Shown: positions 3,641-14,634 of the stretch, piece by piece | Position numbering within the stretch: the first letter of the stretch is position 1 | Layout: the number at the start of each line of letters is the position of its first letter | Assembly: GCA_017524595.1 (NCBI GenBank) | Contig: JAFXVI010000075.1 | Span: 1-43,618 of the forward strand | DNA length: 43,618 bases | DNA from: Lachnospiraceae bacterium | GTDB taxonomy: Bacteria; Bacillota; Clostridia; Lachnospirales; Lachnospiraceae | Direction of reading: 5' to 3' | Translations under genes and position numbers: made by a program | The notes under the pieces: generated by a model | What the model saw: only the letters and a program-made list of their open reading frames with translations | Told to the model about the DNA's origin: nothing | Database searches by the model: none

Positions 3641-6600
3641 ATGGCTGAAAAGGTATGGCAGGAAACGCTTGAGGCGCTAAGGAGGAATCCGAGTTACAGC
3701 GGTATGTTCCATATGATGGAAAGATTCTCGGATGATACTGCTGCCGAGGTGAGCGACATAAATAACAATGCGGTAAAAAGAACCTACAGGGAATACATTG
3801 AAATGTCTATGGCGGCCTGTGGCGTCATGGAGAAGAAAAGACCGTCCGGCGATGTTGTCGGACTCATATACGATACCTGTATGGACTGGCCGGTTTTGCT
3901 CTGGGGTATCCTTATGTCGGGTCAGATACCGCTACTGCTGAATCCTGCGCAGAGACCCGAGCTGCTTAATTCCATAATGGCAGAAGCACGTGCGACCGCA
4001 TATGTTGCTGCAAAACCCGTAACGGACAGCCCGCTTCAGTTCATAGATGCCATGGAAGTTCTCTCGGGAAGTGAGCCGGGGGAAGAGAGATGGGGTGAAT
4101 ACATAGCGCTCTGTACTTCCGGTACCACCGGAAACAGCAGGATCTTTCTTTATAACGCAAATACCATAGCAAATCATATATTAAGCTTTGATGAGGCCAA
4201 GCAGATAAATCCGGATATGCCTTTTATCGAGGATAAGCCCTGTAAGCTTCTTGCATTCCTGCCATTTCACCACGTTTTTGGTTTCTCGGTGGTCTATCTT
4301 CTGTACGCCTGCACGGGAAAGGTTCTTGTATTCTGCCGTGACAAGTCAGTGCAGACCATCCTTGGAACCTGTTCAAAATTTGGCGTAACGCATCTTTACT
4401 GTGTGCCCATATTCTTTAATGCGCTGGCAGACGGCATTGCTAAGAAGCTTAACGGCAGATCACTTAACCCTGTCATCAAACACATCATCAAGAAGAAGAC
4501 ACTGGGAACAAAAATCCGTTCCATGATAACCGGCGGCGGTTATGTTCCCGCAAAGACGCTGGAAATATTAAATGATATCGGATATCCTCTGTGTAACGGT
4601 TTCGGAATGACGGAGACGGGCATCATAGCCGTTGAAAAGTCACTTGATCCGGAGCAACGTAAGAAAGGGAGTATAGGCGAGCCATTCTCGCTTACGGAAT
4701 ACAGAATAGGTGATGGAACGACAGATGAGGGTGAACTGTTCATCCGTGGTGAAGCGCTATATTCAGCATGCATGATAGACGGAAGGATCGTTCCCCGTGA
4801 TAAATCTGCATGGTTTGCGACAGGAGACATTATAAAGAGGACGAAGGATGGTCTGTTTATATGCGGACGTGTAAAGGATGTCATTGTAAATAGCGGAGGT
4901 GAAAATATCTATCCGGATGAGATAGAGAGTCTGTTTGCAGAGCTTCCCGGTGTAAAAAATTCATGTATCATCGGTGTGAAACACGGGAGCAGCGAGGATG
5001 TTGCCATAGTTTCACATAGGGGCGAGGACTTTGATGAAGGGGCATATCTTAAGCAAATAAAAGAAATAAATGAGACTCTTCCTATAGGCGAGAGGGTAAA
5101 AAGAGCTTTCATCAGCAATGAGGCGCTTCCTGTTTCCGGCAGTATGAAGGTTATGCGAGGTAAGCTTAAGGATAATATTGACGGTTTTATAGAACTGCCT
5201 CTTTCAGACAGGCAAAGAAGATTGGATGAAACAAATAAATGCATTGTAAGTGAAAATGTTTCTAATCCGGGTGAACAGGTTAAGGCGGATGAAATGAATG
5301 AAAATGAGCTTGTAAAGATCAGGGAGATAATCCGCGACATCATCGCTGAAACACTCAATTACAGCGAGGAGGAAAAGGCCTCAATATCCTATACCGATTC
5401 CCTGGTTGAAGATCTTGATATGAACAGTGTCGATCTGTATAGCTGTGTGGCTGAATTTGAGAACAGATATGGAGTTGTCATTGTTGACACGGATATTGCG
5501 GGATTTACCGATATCAATAAGATTGCAAGGTATATCTATGCCCTTCTCCATGGTATTGATATACACAATTCCGAAGATGATATTCCTGCGAGAGAAATTT
5601 TAAAAGAAACCAGGTCCCACGACAGTATGAATGCCGGGGATAATTTGAGAATAACTGATTTTGCAAAGAGCCATGAATACAGGGAGTTTAAAGACAGAAT
5701 GGAAGCGATCCTGTCAGACGGTTTTAATCCATTTTTCATTCCTCATGACAGCACCGTCAGGGATACATCCGTTATCCATGGCGAGTCCGTTATAAACTTA
5801 GGATCATATAACTATCTTGGTATGTCCGGGAATAAGGAAGTGGAGCAGGCTGCCATAGAAGCGATCAGGGAGTACGGCACTTCGGCCAGCGGTGCCCGTA
5901 TCCTTGCCGGAGAAAAGACGCTATATCGGGAGTTGGAAAGGGCTATAGCCGACTGGAAGCATACAGAGGATGCTATCGTATGTACCGGTGGGTGGGCTAC
6001 TAATGTGGCTTTCGTTAGCTGCTTCATGCATAAGGGCGACCTTATCATTTATGATGAATTGTCTCATAATTCACTGACAGAGGGCATCAGGCTCTCCGGT
6101 GCCGACAGCAAGATATTTGCGCATAACAACCTAAATATGCTCGAAAATATACTTAAGAAGGTAGAGGGCAGGTACAACAAGGTTCTCATCATAGTTGAGG
6201 GTGTTTACAGCATGGATGGAGATATAGCACCCATCCCTGAATTTGTCAGGCTTAAGAAATTGTATAAATGCTTTCTGATGGTAGACGAAGCTCACTCAAG
6301 CGGCGTGATAGGCAAGCATGGCGGTGGCTGCGATGAATATTTCGGTCTTAAAGATGATGACATCGATATCAAATACGGGACGCTTTCCAAGGCGCTTGGA
6401 ACCTGCGGAGGATATGTTGCTGCAAGCAGGGAAATAATAGAATACCTTAAATACAGTATGAACGGTTTTGTGTTCAGCGCCGGTATCGCACCTCCGCTTG
6501 CTGCAGCTTCAATGAAGGCGATTGAGATCATCCGCCGTGATAATAGCGCAGTCACCAAGCTTCATGAAAACATAGCCTGGTTTGTAAAAAGGGCAGGAGA

Positions 6601-6859
6601 GGCCGGCATGGATACCTGTTTGGCAGGCGAGAGTGCTATAGTTCCGGTTATGATCGGTAAGGACGCGGATGCTGTCAGGATATCTTCGAAACTTCTTGAG
6701 AAAGGTGTTTTTGTTCCGCCTGCCATGTACCCGGCTGTTCCCAGGGGAAAGAGCAGACTGAGATTCACTATCTCATCAACTCACAGCATCGAACAGCTTG
6801 AGAAGGCGATCAGTGAGCTAGAAAAGCTCATGGAGTCAATTGATGGTGCATCACGCTGA
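3641..6859 (+). CDS. Trifunctional acyl-AMP ligase / acyl carrier protein / alpha-oxoamine synthase (serine palmitoyltransferase-like)
   Basis: A 1072-residue fusion. Residues 1 to about 510 are an AMP-forming acyl ligase: core motif TSGTTGNSR at 159-167, NGFGMTETG near 318, FATGD near 391, and a C-terminal GSMKVMRGK lysine region near 500. Residues about 555-640 are an acyl carrier domain with phosphopantetheine serine Ser596 in DMNSVDL. Residues about 670-1065 are a PLP-dependent alpha-oxoamine synthase: NYLG substrate motif, DEAHS, and the internal aldimine lysine Lys917 in GTLSKALG. The predicted path is ATP-dependent fatty acid loading onto the fused ACP, then decarboxylative condensation with an amino acid to a 2-amino-3-ketone. 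BioF, Kbl, SPT and CqsA share this fold, but fusion to its own ligase and ACP plus an adjacent reductase favours a lipid product. The amino acid used (Ser, Ala, Gly or other) cannot be read from the sequence. Ribosome binding site GGAGG precedes the ATG. Confidence 0.9.
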   Translation: MAEKVWQETLEALRRNPSYSGMFHMMERFSDDTAAEVSDINNNAVKRTYREYIEMSMAACGVMEKKRPSGDVVGLIYDTCMDWPVLLWGILMSGQIPLLLNPAQRPELLNSIMAEARATAYVAAKPVTDSPLQFIDAMEVLSGSEPGEERWGEYIALCTSGTTGNSRIFLYNANTIANHILSFDEAKQINPDMPFIEDKPCKLLAFLPFHHVFGFSVVYLLYACTGKVLVFCRDKSVQTILGTCSKFGVTHLYCVPIFFNALADGIAKKLNGRSLNPVIKHIIKKKTLGTKIRSMITGGGYVPAKTLEILNDIGYPLCNGFGMTETGIIAVEKSLDPEQRKKGSIGEPFSLTEYRIGDGTTDEGELFIRGEALYSACMIDGRIVPRDKSAWFATGDIIKRTKDGLFICGRVKDVIVNSGGENIYPDEIESLFAELPGVKNSCIIGVKHGSSEDVAIVSHRGEDFDEGAYLKQIKEINETLPIGERVKRAFISNEALPVSGSMKVMRGKLKDNIDGFIELPLSDRQRRLDETNKCIVSENVSNPGEQVKADEMNENELVKIREIIRDIIAETLNYSEEEKASISYTDSLVEDLDMNSVDLYSCVAEFENRYGVVIVDTDIAGFTDINKIARYIYALLHGIDIHNSEDDIPAREILKETRSHDSMNAGDNLRITDFAKSHEYREFKDRMEAILSDGFNPFFIPHDSTVRDTSVIHGESVINLGSYNYLGMSGNKEVEQAAIEAIREYGTSASGARILAGEKTLYRELERAIADWKHTEDAIVCTGGWATNVAFVSCFMHKGDLIIYDELSHNSLTEGIRLSGADSKIFAHNNLNMLENILKKVEGRYNKVLIIVEGVYSMDGDIAPIPEFVRLKKLYKCFLMVDEAHSSGVIGKHGGGCDEYFGLKDDDIDIKYGTLSKALGTCGGYVAASREIIEYLKYSMNGFVFSAGIAPPLAAASMKAIEIIRRDNSAVTKLHENIAWFVKRAGEAGMDTCLAGESAIVPVMIGKDADAVRISSKLLEKGVFVPPAMYPAVPRGKSRLRFTISSTHSIEQLEKAISELEKLMESIDGASR

Positions 6860-6877
6860 AATTATACATAACAGTGA

Positions 6878-7015
6878 AAACAGGCCCAAATGGATGGCCA
6901 CTGTGTTATACAGGATGACCAGAACAAAATACTTGATCTTTATACTAAAGCGGATGTGATCATATGGAGTTTTCCTTTATACTGCCAAAGAGGAATACTT
7001 AAGAGGAGTGAACAC
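6878..7015 (+). pseudogene. Remnant of a flavodoxin-fold NAD(P)H-dependent oxidoreductase
   Basis: About 40 codons in the frame of the downstream acetyltransferase read DGHCVIQDD...ADVIIWSFPLYC. This is the central segment of small NAD(P)H/FMN oxidoreductases, normally GxCVIxDD followed by ADxIIWSFPLYxYGMPS. The N-terminal third and everything after the LYC motif are missing, and the frame runs without a stop into the GNAT gene. A stop at 6875 closes it upstream. No ribosome binding site suits the ATG at 6890. I read it as a decayed fragment, not as an N-terminal domain of the GNAT. Confidence 0.6.
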
Positions 7016-7018
7016 ACA

Positions 7019-7525
7019 ATGAATATAAAAACAGAGCGTCTTATAATATCGGAATTCAGCCATGATATGGCAATAGCGGTACATAAGAATTCCATTGATG
7101 AGGATACAAGACGTTTTTTACCTGATGAAGTTTTCGAAACAGTAGAGGACGCAGAGGAAACAATAGAATTTCTTATGTCGCAATACGGAGGAGCAGAGGG
7201 ACCTTTAGTATATCCTGTCATTTTAAATGATGGCACAAATATAGGATATGTGCAAGCGGTTCCCATAGAAGATGATAATTGGGAGATAGGATATCATATA
7301 GGTAAAGCTTACACATGCAAGGGATATGCAACTGAGGCAGTAAGGGCATTTTTACCTGTTATCATGAGTGATCTGGGTATAAGCAGGATCAGCGGAATAT
7401 GTGTTAAAGAGAATGTTGCATCGTGTAAAGTGCTTGAAAAGGTCGGATTTACTCTGGTTTACGAAGGTATCGGATGCTATCAGGGTAAGGAAAGAGAAAT
7501 ACATCAATATGTATTTGAAGATTAA
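7019..7525 (+). CDS. GNAT family N-acetyltransferase (RimJ/RimL-like)
   Basis: 168 residues starting MNIKTERL, the usual opening of RimJ/RimL-type acetyltransferases, with the acetyl-CoA region GKAYTCKGYATEAVRAF and the C-terminal NVASCKVLEKVGF motif. The enzyme moves an acetyl group from acetyl-CoA to an amine; the substrate is unknown. I chose the ATG at 7019 because GAGGAG lies about 10 bp upstream and the protein begins at the family's normal N-terminus. The longer frame from 6890 adds only the flavodoxin remnant. The gene sits at the start of the accessory patch and shows no strong functional link to its neighbours. Confidence 0.85.
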   Translation: MNIKTERLIISEFSHDMAIAVHKNSIDEDTRRFLPDEVFETVEDAEETIEFLMSQYGGAEGPLVYPVILNDGTNIGYVQAVPIEDDNWEIGYHIGKAYTCKGYATEAVRAFLPVIMSDLGISRISGICVKENVASCKVLEKVGFTLVYEGIGCYQGKEREIHQYVFED

Positions 7526-7582
7526 AATGAAATATATGTTTATCAGAAGATGGCATGAAGATGTACAAAGGATGGATGGAAA

Positions 7583-8074
7583 ATGAGAATGATAATTCAT
7601 GATCTGGATGAGGATTTTAATGAACGGCTTAAAACCAAATCTGAAGAAGTGATATGGGCCGACGGTAAATATGCCCCGTGTCAGGGCTGCTTTAATTGTT
7701 GGACAAAAAATCCGGCAACCTGTAGCCTGAAAGATTCCCTGCATGAAATGTGCAGGGTAGTCGGACAGGCAGATGATGTTGTGATAATCACGGAGAATTG
7801 TTACGGTGAGTACAGTCAGGCGGTCAAGAATATCCTTGACAGAACAATAGGTGTATCAACTCCCATGAGTACATATCGCGGGGGAGAAATGCATCATACT
7901 CTTCGATATGGAAAGAAGGGAAAGCTTAAAGTGATCGTTTATGGGGATGTAAGTGATAATGAAAAGGCAACATGGAAATTAATGACAGAAAGAAACCGGA
8001 TAAACCACGGTTATCAGTTAAAGGAGCTTGTATTTGTGGATTCCATCGCCGATCTGGAGGTGTCTAAGATATGA
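7583..8074 (+). CDS. Flavodoxin-fold NAD(P)H-dependent reductase family protein (first of a coupled pair)
   Basis: 163 residues opening MRMIIHDL, with the Cys-rich CQGCFNCWTKNPATC segment and a central segment ending in a conserved VKNILDR. These mark a Clostridia flavodoxin-family group related to FMN reductases. It is soluble and probably binds FMN; the electron acceptor is unknown. The stop overlaps the next start (ATGA at 8071-8074), so translation of the pair is coupled. The start at 7583 lies in a short gap after the GNAT gene, with GGATGG upstream. Confidence 0.8.
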   Translation: MRMIIHDLDEDFNERLKTKSEEVIWADGKYAPCQGCFNCWTKNPATCSLKDSLHEMCRVVGQADDVVIITENCYGEYSQAVKNILDRTIGVSTPMSTYRGGEMHHTLRYGKKGKLKVIVYGDVSDNEKATWKLMTERNRINHGYQLKELVFVDSIADLEVSKI

Positions 8075-8826
8075 AAACTGTATTCATAGATTGCAGTCCC
8101 AAAAGAAAGTTTTCTGCATCGGGATTTATTGCCGTCATGACAAGTCTTTTTGTGTTCGGAAGCAAAAAAAAGATGAAACTTCGTACAAAATCAGATCATG
8201 AAGGTATTCTGAAGGAGCTGGAAGATGCAGACGCGGTTGTATTTTCAATGCCACTTTATGTGGACGGTGTACCGTCACATGTTCTTCCGTTTCTAAAGGA
8301 AATGGGAGGGTGGTGCAGGAATAATAATTCTCATATCAGAGTATATGTTATTGCCAATAACGGTTTCATCGAAGGAAGACAGAATGAGCCGCTCATGCAG
8401 GTTATTGAGAATTTCTGCTTAAGGAGCGGGATAGAATGGTGTGGAGGACTTGGGATCGGTGGCGGTGTCATGATGAATGTGATGAGGATAGTGATCGTTG
8501 TTCAATTAATACTCACGCTTATAAGTCTGATTTTCACCGGTATCAGTACCGGAAATTTCTTTGATGGACAGATTCTGCTGGGATTTCTTAAGAGTCTTGC
8601 AGAGGTATTGTTCTTCGGATGCAGTATCATCATGTTTGATATCTGGCTTGCAACATGTATCAACGGAAAAAAGGAATATGGAAAGCATTACACAAGGATC
8701 ATGGTTCCATCATTTTTGTTCATTATTTTTGCTGATATATTCTTTACGATCATATCTATAGTAAAGGGTGGTATTTTCCGGGGATGGTTTTCAAAAAAGA
8801 GGCCGGCATCTTATAAAGATTTTTAA
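8071..8826 (+). CDS. Flavodoxin-like domain fused to a three-span membrane tail (second of a coupled pair)
   Basis: 251 residues. Residues 1-130 are flavodoxin-like (FIDCSPKRKFSAS at the N-terminus, DADAVVFSMPLYVDGVPSHV in the middle, IANNGFIEGRQNEPLMQV later). The C-terminal 120 residues carry three hydrophobic spans, near 133-157, 165-195 and 210-232, and end in a basic tail. This would anchor a flavoprotein module to the inner face of the membrane. It overlaps the soluble flavodoxin gene by four bases, so the two products are probably partners in a small redox complex. The fold is clear; the reaction is not. Confidence 0.72.
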   Translation: MKTVFIDCSPKRKFSASGFIAVMTSLFVFGSKKKMKLRTKSDHEGILKELEDADAVVFSMPLYVDGVPSHVLPFLKEMGGWCRNNNSHIRVYVIANNGFIEGRQNEPLMQVIENFCLRSGIEWCGGLGIGGGVMMNVMRIVIVVQLILTLISLIFTGISTGNFFDGQILLGFLKSLAEVLFFGCSIIMFDIWLATCINGKKEYGKHYTRIMVPSFLFIIFADIFFTIISIVKGGIFRGWFSKKRPASYKDF

Positions 8827-8832
8827 AGAGGA

Positions 8833-8861
8833 TTGACAGATAATTAAGGTAGTATTATATA
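8833..8861 (+). promoter_or_regulatory. Sigma-A promoter for the mutS2-like leader transcript
   Basis: TTGACA at 8833-8838, a 17-bp spacer and TATATA at 8856-8861. The -35 box is consensus and the spacing ideal. It lies directly after the membrane flavodoxin gene and would start transcription near 8868, about 258 nt before the mutS2-like ATG. Confidence 0.7.
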
Positions 8862-8896
8862 TAAAGAAAATTGGTATATTTACAACAGGAGTTTTT

Positions 8897-8920
8897 ATGT
8901 CATTAAGTGTGGTGAAATAA
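8897..8920 (+). CDS. Putative leader peptide MSLSVVK
   Basis: Seven codons plus TAA, with a good AGGAG Shine-Dalgarno at 8887-8891 and 5-bp spacing. It begins about 30 nt after the predicted transcription start and lies upstream of the competing hairpins. That is where leader peptides of ribosome-mediated attenuators sit. The peptide resembles nothing I know; its role would come from ribosome stalling, not from the product. Confidence 0.45.
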   Translation: MSLSVVK

Positions 8921-9066
8921 CCAACGCAAGTTTATATTGCAGGGTTGAGTTTTCGGCATTGCCGATGACTTGGATTACTATGCTTAATATCATGTAATAT
9001 TTGGAACAGCACATTTTAGCCTGTTCTGAATAGGAAGTATAAGAATAATATATAAGACCATTATAT

Positions 9067-9111
9067 AAGACCATGATATCTATGCATATGGATATTGTGG
9101 TCTTAGTTTTT
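9067..9111 (+). terminator. Intrinsic terminator or attenuator 15 bp before the mutS2-like ATG
   Basis: A 14-bp stem, AAGACCATGATATC paired with GATATTGTGGTCTT (12 Watson-Crick pairs), is followed by AGTTTTT. It sits between the leader promoter and the ribosome binding site of the next gene, so it controls read-through and does not simply end the upstream operon. A 12-bp direct repeat, ATATAAGACCAT, lies at 9049-9073. Confidence 0.65.
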
Positions 9112-9125
9112 GAAAGGATATAAAA

Positions 9126-11027
9126 ATGAATACTGAAAATCAGATAGAATTTAATAAAGTTAAGGAAATATGGTCAGAACTCGCTGTTACTGACTATGCC
9201 AAGGATAAGATTAAAGAAACATGGGTATTTACGGATGAAACAAGGTTAAGGAAGGAGCTTCGCGACACGACAAACAGCAGGAGGATGATAGAGAAACTTG
9301 GCGAACCGCCCCTTCAGAATGTTTCTGAAATGAAAGAGATACTCGATATCGCAAAAAAGGGTAACTGCCTGACGCCATATCAATTAACAAGGGTTGAGAA
9401 TATCCTGGTTGCCGTAGACAGAATTAAGGATTATCTTAGCCGGGGCAGACATTATGAGAATTCGCTGGCTTTCTATGATGAAAACTTTAATCCGATTCCG
9501 GAGCTTAAAGAGGAAATAGTAAGACAGATAAGAAATGAGGCTGTTGATGACAAGGCGACAAAAGAACTGTTTGATATAAGGAGTAATATCGTATCAACAG
9601 AAGATGCGATGAAACAGAAGGCCGAGCAGGTCATTAGAAATAATAAGGATTGTATGGCGGATACATATTACACCTTACGGAACGGAAGAGTATGCGTTCC
9701 GGTAAAGAAGGAATGCAAGTTTAAAGTCCCGGGAAGCGTGATCGATAAATCTTCGACCGGAAGTACCTTTTTTATAGAACCGACGGGAGTTGCCAAACTG
9801 TTTGAGGAGCTTCAGCTGTTTGAGATCGATGAAGAGAATGAAGTATATAAGATCCTTTATGCTTTGACAGCTTTTGTATCCGATTGCATACCGGTCATGG
9901 AAGAAAATATAAAGATGATAGAGAAGCTTGATCTTATCTTTTCCAAGGGCAGGTTAAGTCTTGAACTTGACTGCAGTGAACCCGTGATCAATACAGAAAG
10001 AAGGATTGCATTAAAGGAGGCAAGACATCCTCTAATGGATAAGGAAATAAACGTTCCGCTTGATTTTGCAATGGGAGATGACATAAGGGGTGTTGTTATA
10101 ACCGGCCCCAATACGGGAGGTAAGACGATTGCCATAAAGACAGTGATGCTTAACAGTATAATGGCTCAGTGCGGTCTTCATGTTACATGCAAGGAAGCTG
10201 ACATATGTATGAACTCTGACTATCTGTGTGACATAGGTGATGGGCAAAGCCTTTCCGAGAATCTCTCTACATTCTCGGCGCACATTAAGAATGTGCTGGA
10301 TGTTTTAAGCCATGTAAACAGCGACAGCTTTGTGATAATGGATGAACTTGGTTCCGGCACGGATCCTGCAGAAGGAATGGGTATAGCTGTTGCGATCCTT
10401 GAAGAACTCAGGAAGAGCAAGGCAAACTTCCTTGTTACAACCCATTACCCGGAGATCAAGGATTATGCGGAAAGAACGGAGCATATTGTTAATGCAAGGA
10501 TGACCTTTGATAAGGAAACCCTTAAGCCGACATACAGGATGCTTGTCGGGGAAGCGGGCGAGAGCTGCGCCTTTTACATAGCGGACAGGCTGGGCATGCC
10601 TGAGAATATGTTAAAGACTGCTGTGGAAGCAGCTTACGGCGTAGAAGCGGTAGAGGGATATCGTTTCAGTAATACGGGCAGTATGAAAAAGCAGAGTAAA
10701 GGTAAGATCAGAAAGACCAAAAAGGCTACCGTAGATGCGTCTATGGCAGATATGTATTCGATAGGCGATTCGGTCATGGTCTTTCCAGAAAAGAAGATAG
10801 CTATAGTATGTGAACCGGTTAATGAAAAGGGAGTTCTAAGGGTGCAGATGAGGGATAAGAAGATCTGGATAAACCATAAACGTGTGAAGCTTCATGTTAA
10901 GGCTGACCGGCTGTATCCCGAAGATTATGACTTTTCGATCATCTTCGATTCAGTGGAAACCAGAAAGAAGAGACATGATATGGATCGGAAGTTTACACAG
11001 GAGACAATAATATATTCCGATGACTGA
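9126..11027 (+). CDS. MutS2-like ATPase lacking the Smr nuclease domain
   Basis: 633 residues, against about 785 for full MutS2. The MutS core/lever region fills residues 1-300. The ABC-type ATPase follows, with Walker A GPNTGGKT at 327-334 and Walker B IMDELGSGTDPAEG (Asp406-Glu407). About 80 residues then lead to a KOW-like module beginning SIGDSVMVF. The C-terminal Smr endonuclease domain is absent. Full-length B. subtilis MutS2 senses and splits collided ribosomes through its KOW/Smr region; this shorter protein keeps the ATPase and KOW parts. The leader suggests induction by ribosome stalling, which points to ribosome rescue or drug tolerance more than mismatch repair. Ribosome binding site GAAAGGA; ATG at 9126. 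The family is certain; the role is inferred. Confidence 0.88.
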   Translation: MNTENQIEFNKVKEIWSELAVTDYAKDKIKETWVFTDETRLRKELRDTTNSRRMIEKLGEPPLQNVSEMKEILDIAKKGNCLTPYQLTRVENILVAVDRIKDYLSRGRHYENSLAFYDENFNPIPELKEEIVRQIRNEAVDDKATKELFDIRSNIVSTEDAMKQKAEQVIRNNKDCMADTYYTLRNGRVCVPVKKECKFKVPGSVIDKSSTGSTFFIEPTGVAKLFEELQLFEIDEENEVYKILYALTAFVSDCIPVMEENIKMIEKLDLIFSKGRLSLELDCSEPVINTERRIALKEARHPLMDKEINVPLDFAMGDDIRGVVITGPNTGGKTIAIKTVMLNSIMAQCGLHVTCKEADICMNSDYLCDIGDGQSLSENLSTFSAHIKNVLDVLSHVNSDSFVIMDELGSGTDPAEGMGIAVAILEELRKSKANFLVTTHYPEIKDYAERTEHIVNARMTFDKETLKPTYRMLVGEAGESCAFYIADRLGMPENMLKTAVEAAYGVEAVEGYRFSNTGSMKKQSKGKIRKTKKATVDASMADMYSIGDSVMVFPEKKIAIVCEPVNEKGVLRVQMRDKKIWINHKRVKLHVKADRLYPEDYDFSIIFDSVETRKKRHDMDRKFTQETIIYSDD

Positions 11028-11094
11028 TCACCTTTATATCTGTTATTCTCTTAGTGTAGCAAAAAAGAAGATTTATATTGAAGGGAGAGGTAAA

Positions 11095-11211
11095 ATGGGA
11101 GAAAATAATAAGCAGAACAAGTTAATGGCAGCGGAAGATATTTGTGATAAGTGTACCTTGGGCAAGCAGAACAGGTGCGCACATGCATATTATTATCACT
11201 GCGACAGCTAG
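11095..11211 (+). CDS. Small cysteine-rich protein of 38 residues
   Basis: Starts ATGGGAGAA behind GGGAGAGG at 11083-11090 with 4-bp spacing. The last 23 residues carry CDKC, then a Cys after nine residues and another after seven. A CxxC...C...C pattern with adjacent His residues (CAHAYYYHC) could bind a metal. I do not recognise the family. It lies between the mutS2-like gene and a flavodoxin gene on the same strand. The frame is open from 11020, but no earlier start has a ribosome binding site. Confidence 0.6.
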   Translation: MGENNKQNKLMAAEDICDKCTLGKQNRCAHAYYYHCDS

Positions 11212-11237
11212 GGTCAAAGCCTTGATATGGAGGTGTT

Positions 11238-11957
11238 ATGAATATTACAGTTATCAATGGAACAGAGATAAAAGGTGTCACTTTCAAAATGAAAGAGCTT
11301 TTTTTGGAACATCTGAGAGATAAGGCGGATATAACGGAGTTTTATCTGCCTAAGGATTGTCCTTCATTTTGTATGGGGTGCAAAACCTGTTTTCTGAAGG
11401 ATGAGCATAAATGCAAGGATCGTGAATATGTTGAAAAGATTGAGAATGCGATGCTTGAGGCGGATTTACTTATATTTACTTCACCTGCTTATGTCTTTCA
11501 TACAACAGGAGCTATGAAAACAATGCTTGATCATTTTGGCTATCGTTGGATGCCGCATCGACCTGCTAAGGAGATGTTTGGAAAAAGAGCCGTGATCATC
11601 ACGCAATGTCTTGGATCTGGAGAGAAATCTACAGCTAAAGATATAAAGGACAGTCTTTCGTGGTGGGGGATTAGTGATATCAGGGTCATATCCTTTAAAC
11701 TGATGTCTGAGATTGATTGGAACAGGATTCCCAAGAAGCGGCGGGTTGTTTTTGAAAAGAAGCTATATAAATCAGCCGATAAAGTCAGGAATATTGACTA
11801 TACAATACCTGCAAGGAGTTCACTACCAGTCAAGCTGAAATTCTATATGGTCAGGATGCTTCAGACAGGACTTGGAAAAACTGATCCTGAATACACAGAT
11901 TATAAATATTGGAAACAAAACGGATGGATAGATGATGTCAGACCTTGGAAACAGTAG
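11238..11957 (+). CDS. Flavodoxin family protein (NAD(P)H-dependent FMN reductase-like)
   Basis: 239 residues. The N-terminal MNITVINGT strand, the Cys pair CMGCKTCFL, ADLLIFTSPAYVFHTTGAMKTMLDHF and the KRAVIITQCLGSG strand fit the iron-sulfur-flavoprotein/NADPH-dependent FMN reductase superfamily. The C-terminal 70 residues are extra, basic and aromatic, and may dock to a partner or membrane. GGAGGTGTT precedes the ATG. It is one of four complete flavodoxin-fold genes in this patch. The electron donor and acceptor are unknown. Confidence 0.82.
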   Translation: MNITVINGTEIKGVTFKMKELFLEHLRDKADITEFYLPKDCPSFCMGCKTCFLKDEHKCKDREYVEKIENAMLEADLLIFTSPAYVFHTTGAMKTMLDHFGYRWMPHRPAKEMFGKRAVIITQCLGSGEKSTAKDIKDSLSWWGISDIRVISFKLMSEIDWNRIPKKRRVVFEKKLYKSADKVRNIDYTIPARSSLPVKLKFYMVRMLQTGLGKTDPEYTDYKYWKQNGWIDDVRPWKQ

Positions 11958-11983
11958 TACTTTGACAGTAAGGATGATGAGAT

Positions 11984-12436
11984 ATGGAAGTAATTAATTA
12001 TTTTACAAGTGATAAAAAAGATCATTGGCTGGGTGAGATACAGAAAAGCGTATGGGGTGCGGGAAAATACCTTTATGAATTGCTTAGTGACCATAAACTG
12101 AAAGGATTATGTGGGGAATCAACCATGGTATTCCTGCTTGTTGAAGGGGATGAACTGCTTTCGTTCTGCACCTATGCGGAACAGGATGAAGTACGTGAGC
12201 CTTCATTAACACCGTGGGTTGGATTTGTGTATACCTTTCCTGAGCACAGAGGAAAGCGGCTTGTGGGTAATCTTCTTAAAAAGGCATATGACCTGGCAAA
12301 AAACTACGGACATAAGTATATTTACATTTCTACGGGTGAAACCGGATTGTATGAGAAATACGGATACAGTTTCTGGAAGATGATGAAGAATGTTGAAGGT
12401 GGAGACAGTCGAGTATACAGGATTGAAATAGTGTAA
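11984..12436 (+). CDS. GNAT family N-acetyltransferase
   Basis: 150 residues with VGFVYTFPEHRGKRLVGNLLKKA, where the acetyl-CoA loop is a variant (R-G-K-R-L-V-G) of Q/RxxGxG/A, and the C-terminal ETGLYEKYGYSFW strand typical of GNATs acting on small molecules. The start at 11984 follows GGATGATGAG. It is on the same strand as the flavodoxin and C_GCAxxG_C_C genes with short gaps, so they may share a transcript. The substrate is unknown. Confidence 0.82.
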   Translation: MEVINYFTSDKKDHWLGEIQKSVWGAGKYLYELLSDHKLKGLCGESTMVFLLVEGDELLSFCTYAEQDEVREPSLTPWVGFVYTFPEHRGKRLVGNLLKKAYDLAKNYGHKYIYISTGETGLYEKYGYSFWKMMKNVEGGDSRVYRIEIV

Positions 12437-12467
12437 GTGTGATCTTTTTACAAACAGGGTGAATAAT

Positions 12468-12926
12468 ATGGCTAATATTCATGAAGAAAAGGCAGTAGAA
12501 TACTACTCTAATAATTTCAATTGTTCACAGGGAGTTTTTACGACTTATGCGATCGAACATGGTATAGATGAAAAACTGGCATTACATATTGCCACAAATT
12601 TCGGCGGTGGAGCAAGAAAAGGTGAAATGTGCGGGGCTGTGTCCGGTGCGCTTATGGTGTTGGGACTTTTGTATGGACATTCGGAAAGCAATGATATTGA
12701 AACCAAGTCAAAATCATATGCTATGGCTGAAGATTATATGAACAGATTTATCGAAAAAAACGGCAGTGTTGTGTGTAGAGAGCTGTTGGGTTATGATCTT
12801 TCAAAACCGGATGAACGTGAAAAAATAGTGGAAAAGAATCTTTTTCGAACCTTATGCCCGGAAATGATAAGAAGTGCGGTCAGTATACTTGATGAGTTGT
12901 TGGATGAATACGAAAAAAAAGATTAA
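12468..12926 (+). CDS. C_GCAxxG_C_C family redox protein
   Basis: 152 residues matching the family's cysteine pattern: NCSQGV near residue 20, GGGARKGEMCGAVSGALMVLG in the middle, VCRELLGYDLS and a late LCPEMI. The family is widespread in anaerobes and thought to be redox-active, possibly cofactor-binding; its reaction is not established. I chose the ATG at 12468 (AGGGTG upstream) over the GTG at 12459. The 3' end overlaps an alpha/beta-hydrolase remnant. Confidence 0.88.
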   Translation: MANIHEEKAVEYYSNNFNCSQGVFTTYAIEHGIDEKLALHIATNFGGGARKGEMCGAVSGALMVLGLLYGHSESNDIETKSKSYAMAEDYMNRFIEKNGSVVCRELLGYDLSKPDEREKIVEKNLFRTLCPEMIRSAVSILDELLDEYEKKD

Positions 12927-13094
12927 AACCAAATATATGTATATTATAATTTCTTTAATACTGATCATCATCATATTTGCCATAATTCCTCCGAGTACCG
13001 GGAAACTGCCCAAGGGCCATGCGCCCACAGCACTATCTATGAGGATGGAGAAAGGACACGGGAAATACTGGAGAAAATGTTGGGGAAGGAATAA
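12904..13094 (+). pseudogene. Alpha/beta-hydrolase remnant with its middle deleted
   Basis: The first 30 codons (from ATG 12904) encode a basic start, a hydrophobic anchor (MYIIISLILIIIIFAII) and PPSTGKLP, which resembles the N-terminus of membrane-anchored alpha/beta-hydrolases of Clostridia. In another frame the tail reads AHSTIYEDGERTREILEKMLGKE and stops at 13094, like a hydrolase C-terminus around its catalytic His. The 200 or so residues between are missing and the frame changes near 13015. As written, the first frame runs on to 13104 as nonsense. The family call is from memory and tentative. Confidence 0.45.
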
Positions 13095-13141
13095 TAAAAG
13101 ATAAGAGGGTAATACTATCAGGACAGGAAAAAAGTTCAGAA

Positions 13142-13180
13142 CATGACATACAGTTGTCGTGTTAGGCTTGATAGAATATA
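13142..13180 (+). promoter_or_regulatory. Promoter/operator shared with the WYL regulator gene
   Basis: A 39-nt element with inverted GACA-N6-TGTC at 13146-13158 and an extended -10, TGATAGAAT. It aligns without gaps to 14779-14817 upstream of the WYL regulator, with 29 of 39 identical positions. Both the palindrome and its distance to the -10 are conserved. It drives the DUF3795 stub, hydrolase and yoaP genes and is probably bound by the WYL protein. Confidence 0.6.
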
Positions 13181-13263
13181 TGAAGAAGTTGATCAACAGA
13201 CTAATATAAAACCAGCGATCAGGAAGTTATAGAAATGGAATTTACAAGAAAAGGAGATTTTTT

Positions 13264-13368
13264 ATGAAGGATTATATTGCATTTTGCGGATTGGACTGTG
13301 AGTTTTGCGAGGCCCGTATTGCCACGGTTAACAACGATGATGACCGCAACAGGTTGAAGGAAATATGA
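13264..13368 (+). pseudogene. DUF3795 protein truncated to 34 residues
   Basis: A good AAGGAG ribosome binding site precedes ATG 13264. The product opens MKDYIAFCGLDCEFCEARIATVNND, the Cys-rich start of DUF3795 proteins, which are normally over 100 residues. Here a TGA follows 34 codons, and the ATGA overlaps the start of the next gene. The rest of DUF3795 is absent. It may now serve only to bring ribosomes to the hydrolase start. Confidence 0.65.
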
Positions 13369-13877
13369 AAGGACAGATAGAAAACGTGGGAAACAAAGCA
13401 CTGGTCGTGATCGACATTCAAAATGACATTACGAAAAATTACAAGAAAATCATAGATAAGATCAATGAGGCCATTGACTGGGCTGTGACAGAGAATATGC
13501 GAGTCATCTATGTAAAACATAACAACCTGTCACCGGGAACCAGAACCTTTAAGCCTGATACGAAAGGAGCCGAACTGGTTCCGGAAATGAAGGTGGTTTC
13601 CGAGAACATATATGTTAAGTCAAAGTCAAATGCGCTTACAAGCGAAGAATTCGTGAGATTTATAGAGAAAAACGGACTGGATGAGTTTTATATAACAGGC
13701 GCGGATGCTACCGCCTGCGTGAAATCAACGTGTTTCAATATGACAAAGTCAGGGTATACGGTACATGTGATATCCGATTGCATAACAAGTTATGATCTGA
13801 AGAAGCTGGACGAAATGTATACCTACTATGCGAGCAAGGGCTGTGAAGTAAAGGAGCTTAAAGACTATCAGTCTTGA
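13365..13877 (+). CDS. Isochorismatase-like cysteine hydrolase
   Basis: 170 residues. The catalytic aspartate is Asp17 in VVIDIQND, the lysine is Lys85 or Lys87 in YVKSKSNA, and the nucleophile is Cys118 in ITGADATACVKST. These define the isochorismatase-like/nicotinamidase superfamily, which hydrolyses amides or vinyl ethers. The substrate is unknown. The start overlaps the stop of the DUF3795 stub, and yoaP begins 10 bp after the end, so the three form one unit behind the 13142 operator. Confidence 0.87.
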   Translation: MKGQIENVGNKALVVIDIQNDITKNYKKIIDKINEAIDWAVTENMRVIYVKHNNLSPGTRTFKPDTKGAELVPEMKVVSENIYVKSKSNALTSEEFVRFIEKNGLDEFYITGADATACVKSTCFNMTKSGYTVHVISDCITSYDLKKLDEMYTYYASKGCEVKELKDYQS

Positions 13878-13887
13878 GGAGGAAGTC

Positions 13888-14634
13888 ATGGAGTATATCA
13901 GAGTCACTAAGGAAAATCTCGAAAATGAGCATATCTGCTGTGCCATTTCAAACAATAAGGATGTGCAGGTATCATCGAAAAAGGCGTGGCTTGCTGACAG
14001 ATTTGATGAAGGACTTGTGTTCTTAAAAAGTGTGGAGCGTGGGAAGTGTTTTATCGAATATATCCCGGCGGAGTATGCATGGAATCCCATAAGCGCCCCA
14101 GGTTATATATACATAGACTGTCTGTGGGTTTCGGGATCTCTCAAGGGACACGGATATTCAAGCGACCTTCTTTCTGAATGCATCAGGGACAGTAAGGAAA
14201 AGAGAAAGACGGGGTTATGTATTCTGGCGGCAGCAAAGAAGAAACCGTTTCTTGCTGATCCGAAGTTCCTGAAATACAAGGGTTTTGAGGTAAGTGATGA
14301 AGCTGATAACGGCATTCAGTTATGGTATCTGCCTTTTGAAAAGGATGCAGAAATCCCGTCTTTTAAGGAATGCGCAAAGCATCCCCATATTGATGAAAAG
14401 GGATATGTGCTATTCTATACGAACCAGTGTCCGTTCAATGCGAAGTATGTGCCGGTCCTTGAAGAGACTGCAAAGAATAATGGAATACCCTTCAAGGCAG
14501 TGAAGATCGAGAGCAGGGAGGCTGCCAGGAATGCGCCGACTGCGATCACTACATACGCACTTTTCTGTGATGGGGAATACGTTACGAATGAACAGATGAA
14601 CGACAAGAAGTTTTTGAAGCTTGTAAACGGGTGA
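13888..14634 (+). CDS. yoaP: YoaP-like protein: GNAT domain plus C-terminal thioredoxin-like domain
   Basis: 248 residues. The N-terminal 150 form a GNAT domain (IDCLWVSGSLKGHGYSSDLLSECI is the acetyl-CoA loop). The rest matches the YoaP C-terminal domain: YVLFYTNQCPFNAKYVPVLEE is thioredoxin-like, with one Cys in place of CxxC, and ends in APTAITTYALFCDGEYVTNEQM. Ribosome binding site GAGGAGG lies just upstream. It is cotranscribed with the hydrolase and likely under WYL control. The biochemical role of YoaP is not established. Confidence 0.85.
   Translation: MEYIRVTKENLENEHICCAISNNKDVQVSSKKAWLADRFDEGLVFLKSVERGKCFIEYIPAEYAWNPISAPGYIYIDCLWVSGSLKGHGYSSDLLSECIRDSKEKRKTGLCILAAAKKKPFLADPKFLKYKGFEVSDEADNGIQLWYLPFEKDAEIPSFKECAKHPHIDEKGYVLFYTNQCPFNAKYVPVLEETAKNNGIPFKAVKIESREAARNAPTAITTYALFCDGEYVTNEQMNDKKFLKLVNG

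Follow-up and report, generated by a model that had tools for sequence, protein, structure and literature searches.

In Bacillus subtilis, MutS2 splits stalled ribosomes, disomes among them, in an ATP-dependent manner for which its Walker B motif is essential, and cells without it are hypersensitive to chloramphenicol, tetracycline and erythromycin (PMC10897456). Mutants of its Smr or KOW domain displayed only very modest erythromycin sensitivity, and the authors suggested that the contact between KOW and uS10 may suffice for partial activity without Smr (PMC10897456). Because of that work, and of the work on HflXr of Listeria (PMC6310831) and on CplR (PMC10201436), we read the locus described here as one that provides an inducible, ribosome-acting ATPase, with the leader doing the sensing. 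The window, that is the whole stretch of 43,618 nucleotides (nt) analysed (forward strand of contig JAFXVI010000075.1, assembly GCA_017524595.1 of a Lachnospiraceae bacterium), belongs, as contig 15, to a genome that is incomplete (1.73 Mb, 60 percent) and carries a gene for a MutS2-related ATPase without Smr, preceded by a leader with a short open reading frame (ORF) and a terminator. We propose, with a probability of roughly 65 percent, that at this locus a ribosome-mediated transcription attenuator drives the ATPase gene, and that the product is a stall-inducible, ribosome-acting factor of tolerance to ribosome-targeting drugs. The anatomy of the leader, its recurrence, its species-specific pairing, the separate clade of the protein and the operon partners are all observed in the genomes compared.

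The leader and its recurrence

A preliminary description of this stretch had named a consensus promoter, a seven-codon ORF with a Shine-Dalgarno (SD) site, mutually exclusive hairpins, a terminator about 15 bp before the gene and a MutS2 relative that keeps the ATPase and KOW parts and lacks Smr, and each of these was found in place (Table 1). A stricter promoter scan of the window did not return the promoter; promoters with at least 10 of 12 consensus matches stand upstream of 108 of 122 leader ORFs, where letter shuffles give an expectation of 7.3. Folding predicts that the leader ORF and a downstream region, the anti-leader, form a 14-bp helix, which adds to the set of exclusive structures, and the elements would therefore constitute a leader/anti-leader/terminator switch. 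Overlapping the anti-leader, ATATCATG is exactly complementary over 8 bp to CATGATAT in the terminator, whose stem is followed by GTTTTTG and ends 20 nt before the gene start, so that the distance first given was fair.

An 8-nt complement alone is weak evidence, and it is lifted beyond chance by its recurrence in other genomes as compared with controls. Using a fixed peptide rule within 900 nt upstream, a leader was found at 63 of 79 orthologues, the set on which the rule was tuned, and at 51 of 73 named orthologues, a set sharing a few loci with the first. The same rule found a leader at 1 of 27 canonical MutS2 genes and, among 392 other genes from these loci, at 19; one of the 19 leaders belongs to an exporter operon. 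The rule admits chance peptides, so a few matches are due to chance (that of locus L111, for instance, lies within a neighbouring gene), and all rules for finding leaders required an SD-like site. Among phylum-wide homologues, a comparable leader was recognised by eye in 26 of 29 upstream regions (all except L308, L309 and L311). Thus both the leader ORF and the complementarity, whose absence from homologues would have spoken against the earlier idea, recur in Lachnospiraceae and in distant Bacillota.

The encoded peptide is MSLSVVK in the window, with the same or a similar peptide in three orthologues of the genus, and MLSVV plus one or two residues in nearer kin, while many other orthologues encode MLSVIVMEKIAK and its variants, and further ones MLIVSVLEITA and MLIAS. 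Phylum-wide, the peptides include MLGVVLN, MSEVVLN, MSVNVLN, MLVTVLN, MSESVIN, MSVLSVMVIIN and MLNVSVMVIFN. Mean entropy over 52 distinct 12-codon leaders increased from 0.58 bits at the first codon position to 0.73 at the second and 0.97 at the third, a rise that does not hold at every codon, and this third-position variation lends mild support to the idea that the leader may be coding. The exact leader pattern of the window occurs, among 397 family genomes, in the window's own genome alone; conservation therefore lies at the level of peptide and pairing.

Pairing between ORF and downstream region of the same leader averaged -22.8 kcal/mol over 67 leaders, as compared with -18.7 kcal/mol after swapping (z -10), and for 26 phylum leaders, whose ORFs were picked from lists ordered by pairing energy, none of 2000 permutations was as good as the own pairing. 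In many phylum leaders the downstream region holds a complement of the final leader codons that changes together with them, either exact (GTTCTTAACTA/TAGTTAAGAAC, GTTCTGAACTA/TAGTTCAGAAC) or one base off (GTTCTCAACTAACCG/CGGTTATTGAGAAC, GGTTCTTTAACTGG/CCAGGTAAAGAACC); the first kind is seen in Cytobacillus and at two Paenibacillus loci. For 40 leaders of the twelve-codon type, selected for the anti-leader motif and aligned out of the 57 that passed a motif filter, the named structure is 93 percent paired as opposed to 40-48 percent when slid, and 55 alignment cells are changed on both sides compared with 15.7 in shuffles. RNAalifold returned just 5 pairs on the first covariance alignment, and the hand-named structure on the tighter set has 34. 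Of 67 leaders, 63 contain one or more terminator-like hairpins, as do 27 of the 67 reversed sequences, according to a detector that missed the window's own terminator, which a separate terminator scan finds. In 24 window-type rows, which exclude the window itself and contain two near-identical pairs, ATCATGG-like arms pair with the terminator arm at -11.4 kcal/mol versus -6.2 kcal/mol for shuffled arms, and 59 of 2000 swaps were as low.

The in silico folding of the window leader, which assumes a transcription start at 8865, predicts, for the free RNA, pairing of codons 2-7 with the anti-leader and formation of the terminator. When the footprint of a ribosome stalled at codons 1-4 was imposed, the antiterminator reached a probability of 0.97-0.98 with the polymerase at 9088-9092, and with a stall at the stop codon it was 0.97 and then 0.88 over the same polymerase positions; with no ribosome it was 0.19 at 9088.

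The Smr-less family and its operon partners

The 633-aa product matches TIGR01069 (mutS2) with 533 bits over residues 2-501, from profile position 3, in the NCBIfam scan, and MutS_V is the only domain matched in Pfam. Pfam and profile scans found no Smr domain, Pfam and NCBIfam scans no mismatch domains I and II, and the Pfam scan no tandem ABC domains; the MutS core, clamp and ATPase are kept, and a defence-system library gave no match. Nearly all residues of Walker A and of Walker B (DELGSGTDP) are invariant or almost so in an alignment of 53 homologues. Positions 3-543 of the family profile can be aligned with B. subtilis MutS2, and a further, weak alignment (11.6 bits) spans KOW at residues 566-687 of the B. 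subtilis protein; hhalign of the C-terminal part of the family against the canonical KOW region gave a probability of 69 percent (E 4e-5). The linker before KOW measures about 40 aa in the family versus about 120 aa in B. subtilis MutS2. At the point where canonical MutS2 enters Smr, the family has a tail of its own in which Y597, P598, Y601, D602, R613 and K614 are invariant across the 53 homologues, and a search with the C-terminal profile alone found no convincing match to a solved structure (best E 0.21). In addition, six distant members (L171, L173, L174, L311, L312 and L313) bear a basic C-terminal tail of the RGSKKAxKKxxKE type.

As the window's genome also holds a canonical MutS2 elsewhere (an open frame of 817 aa, 37 percent identity), the product described here is a paralogue. 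A GKG-type Smr motif is present in none of 66 family members versus 22 of 24 canonical MutS2 proteins, the remaining two of which have LDLRG. A quick-search tree of 73 rows, left after a motif filter had removed 17 of 90 (16 Smr-less, 1 canonical), separates 50 Smr-less from 23 canonical proteins by a branch with a value of 99 in the Shimodaira-Hasegawa-like approximate likelihood ratio test (SH-aLRT). By these sequence comparisons, the Smr-less proteins are a distinct clade and not truncated MutS2. Relatives are annotated as 'endonuclease MutS2' or 'DNA mismatch repair protein MutS'. The 'endonuclease MutS2' equivalog TIGR01069 accepts the Smr-less paralogue above its cut-off of 400 and matched all 42 members scanned, and the family thus carries the name of a domain that is absent from it.

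At the genus level, a match of at least 74 percent identity was found in 4 of 37 genomes including the window's own. In the Lachnospiraceae sample the gene is present at E 1e-110 or better in at least 78 of 397 genomes, about a fifth, a lower bound since split genes are missed, and in a Bacillota-wide sample the C-terminal profile matches in 31 of 398 genomes, the window's included (about 8 percent). Named relatives point to Lachnospiraceae, with a metagenome-assembled genome of Butyrivibrio as the top-listed C-terminal match. The 53 homologues range from Lachnospiraceae to a pair of contigs that bear the labels Enterococcus and Listeria phage and are probably bacterial DNA. A survey of mutS2 by homology coverage in 15,259 genomes does not, in its accessible part, set an Smr-less paralogue apart (PMC11633108). 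In another study, COG1193 MutS2 is listed among genes co-shared between genera by horizontal transfer in chicken and pig gut microbiota (PMC10782964), and this entry may be the accessory Smr-less paralogue.

A covariance model built from 19 leaders, whose own training rows match by construction, gave 57 matches in 51 of the 397 family genomes. Among the matches read away from known MutS2-like genes, four (L152, L154, L156 and L157) precede stand-alone ABC-2 exporters consisting of an ATPase and two permeases, and two (L155 and L158) precede GNAT acetyltransferases; at two others (L153 and L162) the downstream gene is itself MutS2-like. Three genomes (G384, G167 and G202) have one leader before the MutS2-like gene and another elsewhere. 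Four weak matches (L159, L160, L161 and L165) look like chance and were not counted. A further 35 orthologues, namely 34 of the 38 at which the peptide rule had failed plus L111, were searched for a leader-like ORF within 4.5 kb, a distance that allows more chance matches, and 21 had one, mostly at the operon head. With partner families grouped by eye and Pfam run on representatives, the operons read leader - GNAT - mutS2-like (in Butyrivibrio and kin), leader - methyltransferase - mutS2-like and leader - exporter - mutS2-like. The methyltransferase, dependent on S-adenosylmethionine (SAM) by its family and about 240 aa long, lies between leader and MutS2-like gene at seven loci (L178, L196, L211, L212, L235, L242 and L111; Pfam on L178 only). 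The exporter ATPase of L157 is nearest to the DrrA subfamily, below the cut-off (199 versus 312 bits). Genes for exporters, acetyltransferases and methyltransferases often accompany drug resistance; among those scanned, no named resistance family was matched above its cut-off.

Within the window, several GNAT and flavodoxin-like genes surround the locus (6890-14634), apparently sharing no operon with the MutS2-like gene. In addition, a single 1072-aa protein encoded at 3641-6859 combines AMP-binding, PP-binding and Aminotran_1_2 domains and probably represents the fusion of an acyl-AMP ligase with an alpha-oxoamine-synthase-like enzyme.

Table 1. Features of the attenuator and of the gene behind it, in window positions
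Feature	Position	Strand	Detail	Basis
Promoter	8833..8861	+	-35 TTGACA 8833-8838, 17-nt spacer, -10 TATATA 8856-8861	10/12 consensus matches
Leader SD	8887..8891	+	AGGAG	read in sequence
Leader ORF	8897..8920	+	MSLSVVK*, 7 codons + stop, ATG TCA TTA AGT GTG GTG AAA TAA	read in sequence; recurs in orthologues
OFF helix, 5' arm (predicted)	8902..8915	+	leader codons 2-7, partner 8975-8988	folding, P 0.86-0.97 in free RNA
OFF helix, 3' arm (anti-leader, predicted)	8975..8988	+	overlaps antiterminator	folding
Antiterminator, 5' arm (predicted)	8987..8994	+	ATATCATG, partner 9072-9079	exact complement of CATGATAT; equivalents in most window-type leaders
Intrinsic terminator	9066..9111	+	18-pair hairpin 9066-9105 + GTTTTT, includes antiterminator partner 9072-9079	terminator scan
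Main-gene SD	9113..9118	+	AAAGGA, outside terminator stem	read in sequence
MutS2-related ATPase without Smr	9126..11027	+	633 aa, intact	ORF list and profile matches
Walker A	10104..10127	+	GPNTGGKT, residues 327-334	327, 329, 331-334 invariant in 53-homologue alignment
KOW-like domain	10752..10898	+	residues ~543-591	profile against B. subtilis MutS2 and hhalign
Family-specific C-terminal motif	10911..10967	+	LYPxxYD...RK, residues 596-614	53-homologue alignment

Proposed mechanism and alternative readings

In the mechanism that we propose, the leader ORF of an unstressed cell would be translated and cleared by the ribosome, its codons would then pair with the anti-leader, and with nothing to rival the terminator transcription would end at about 9106-9111. 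A ribosome stalled on the seven-codon ORF would cover the 5' arm of the OFF helix and free the anti-leader, which could then pair with the emerging 5' arm of the terminator, and the polymerase would enter the gene. The product, which has the ATPase core, clamp and KOW and not the collision-sensing Smr, might then act on stalled ribosomes, most likely by splitting them or otherwise clearing the stall, and would thereby confer inducible tolerance to ribosome-targeting drugs. Translation of the leader ORF, stall-dependent induction, action on ribosomes and the inducing drug are inferred here; the earlier suggestions of a gene induced when ribosomes stall and of a rescue or resistance factor seem strengthened by the operon partners and by the published MutS2 work.

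Several observations weigh against this proposal. In the swap test, only 8 of 67 leaders had their own downstream region as best partner, while for 28 it ranked within the top tenth, and the antiterminator pairing is modest in 64 mixed leaders, with 17 and 5 of 2000 permutations as low. In the covariation analysis of leaders of homologues, put forward earlier as a check, only 3 of 11 covarying pairs fall in the leader/anti-leader helices, where 3 of 20 pairs changed on both sides, and 6 fall in a variable hairpin, and the 40 rows had been selected for the anti-leader motif. In equilibrium folding at full length the terminator prevails even when the ORF is blocked (P 0.98), and the ON state appears in partial transcripts only; since the terminator wins at full length in every case, the switch would have to be kinetic, with the choice made during transcription. 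Moreover, the rules used found no adjacent leader in 16 of 79, 22 of 73 and 3 of 29 homologues. On the protein side, only the Q of the uS10-binding KOW residues (Q668xxILK) is clearly retained in the profile alignment, and the family lacks the Smr domain, which was rated most important for binding collided ribosomes (PMC10897456).

In the foremost alternative reading, the same drug-sensing attenuator controls a protein that protects or resets the ribosome in the manner of ABC-F proteins and does not split it into subunits. ABC-F genes do have the same kind of leader (PMC10201436), and with Smr lost and a conserved C-terminal motif of its own the family may engage the ribosome differently from MutS2. 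However, its core, clamp and ATPase align over profile positions 3-543 with a disome-splitting protein, and the ABC-F architecture is absent from the 633-aa protein by Pfam, and we consider this reading unlikely, if worth keeping in view. It is improbable, in our estimate, that the protein acts on DNA, on recombination or repair intermediates as in older MutS2 proposals, with the leader coupling it to growth or stress: the annotations point that way and MutS2 proteins bind branched DNA (PMC12292046), yet the protein has neither Smr nor mismatch domains I and II, a ribosome-read leader with resistance-type partners fits translation better, and B. subtilis MutS2 acts on ribosomes (PMC10897456).

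The composition of the leader peptides could also suggest a genuine attenuator that senses shortage of branched-chain amino acids, as 5 of the 12 residues of MLSVIVMEKIAK are Leu, Ile or Val and 97 of 125 leaders have Val at codon 4. Against this, no leader read contains a run of a single regulatory codon, the distant peptides MSESVIN, MSAVGTK and MSASVQI are poor in these residues, and the downstream genes identified are exporters, acetyltransferases, methyltransferases and MutS2-like genes, none of them biosynthetic. Rfam covariance models, in turn, matched none of the leaders searched (the window and 8 loci), and their sole T-box match lies on the opposite strand of L048. We hold amino-acid sensing to be quite improbable. 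Still less credence is due to a MutS-type reactivase or chaperone of a metabolic enzyme, similar to KamC: among NCBIfam models NF052383 (KamC) ranks second for the window protein, and it matches 42 of 42 members scanned, but it scores 213 bits, under its cut-off of 300, while mutS2 scores 533 bits, over its cut-off of 400.

With the attenuator and ribosome-acting ATPase as our preferred reading, we tentatively extend it, at slightly less than even odds, to the phylum. Having shed the collision sensor Smr and come under a leader-peptide switch, Smr-less MutS2 might be an inducible antibiotic-tolerance family acting on any drug-stalled ribosome, in which the leader senses and the ATPase removes. 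It might also be the accessory gene that closes resistance operons, behind an acetyltransferase, a methyltransferase or an exporter, and these operons, through their common leader class, might form an attenuation regulon in rumen and gut Lachnospiraceae. The parts are each known in kind; their combination, distribution and the leader-sharing operons are undescribed in the literature searched. No report of a MutS2 leader or attenuator, or of an Smr-less MutS2 in Bacillota, was found in that literature, whose coverage excludes most subscription papers and bioRxiv, and 'mutS' is absent from the text of an attenuator survey (PMC2965389). If the proposal is true, a protein annotated 'endonuclease MutS2' would be a stall-inducible ribosome factor in about a fifth of the family's genomes and about 8 percent of the phylum sample, and would be the second ribosome-splitting family, after HflXr, in antibiotic tolerance of gut and soil bacteria. 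It would also provide a natural test of the role of Smr in MutS2, and the leader class would flag neighbouring acetyltransferases, methyltransferases and exporters as likely drug-response genes.

Comparison with described systems

Leaders of the ErmC and ErmA type likewise encode a short hydrophobic peptide whose codons pair with downstream RNA, and the IAVV motif of the ErmA leader resembles LSVV of the window leader. Attenuation of erm genes is mostly translational, whereas the gene described here is preceded by a transcription terminator whose stem leaves the main SD free. The ARE-ABCF genes (CplR, VmlR and LsaA) also have a short upstream ORF (uORF) and a premature terminator that is relieved by ribosome stalling, although their uORFs encode MR[I/M], MIN or MAGN and they specify tandem ABC proteins, which are unrelated to MutS (PMC10201436).

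The family resembles B. subtilis MutS2 along about 540 profile positions that comprise core, clamp and ATPase, and also in a KOW-like domain, and it differs in the missing Smr, the shorter linker before KOW, its own C-terminal motif and its separate clade. Canonical MutS2 genes also differ in the leader, which the peptide rule found at 1 of 27 of them as compared with 63 of 79 Smr-less orthologues. The nearest analogue appears to be HflXr. HflX is a GTPase, whereas the protein here is an ATPase of the MutS family. In the leader of HflXr there is an RLR motif, which is found neither in the window leader nor in those listed for orthologues and phylum homologues, the leaders here having motifs of the M(L/S)xV type, and resistance by HflXr has been shown where that by the MutS2 relative is our proposal (PMC6310831). 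The likeness would lie in the overall design: in Listeria, too, a homologue of a ribosome-splitting factor is an inducible antibiotic-resistance gene, under the control of a short leader ORF with alternative RNA folds and a premature stop of transcription, with a second homologue elsewhere in the genome (PMC6310831).

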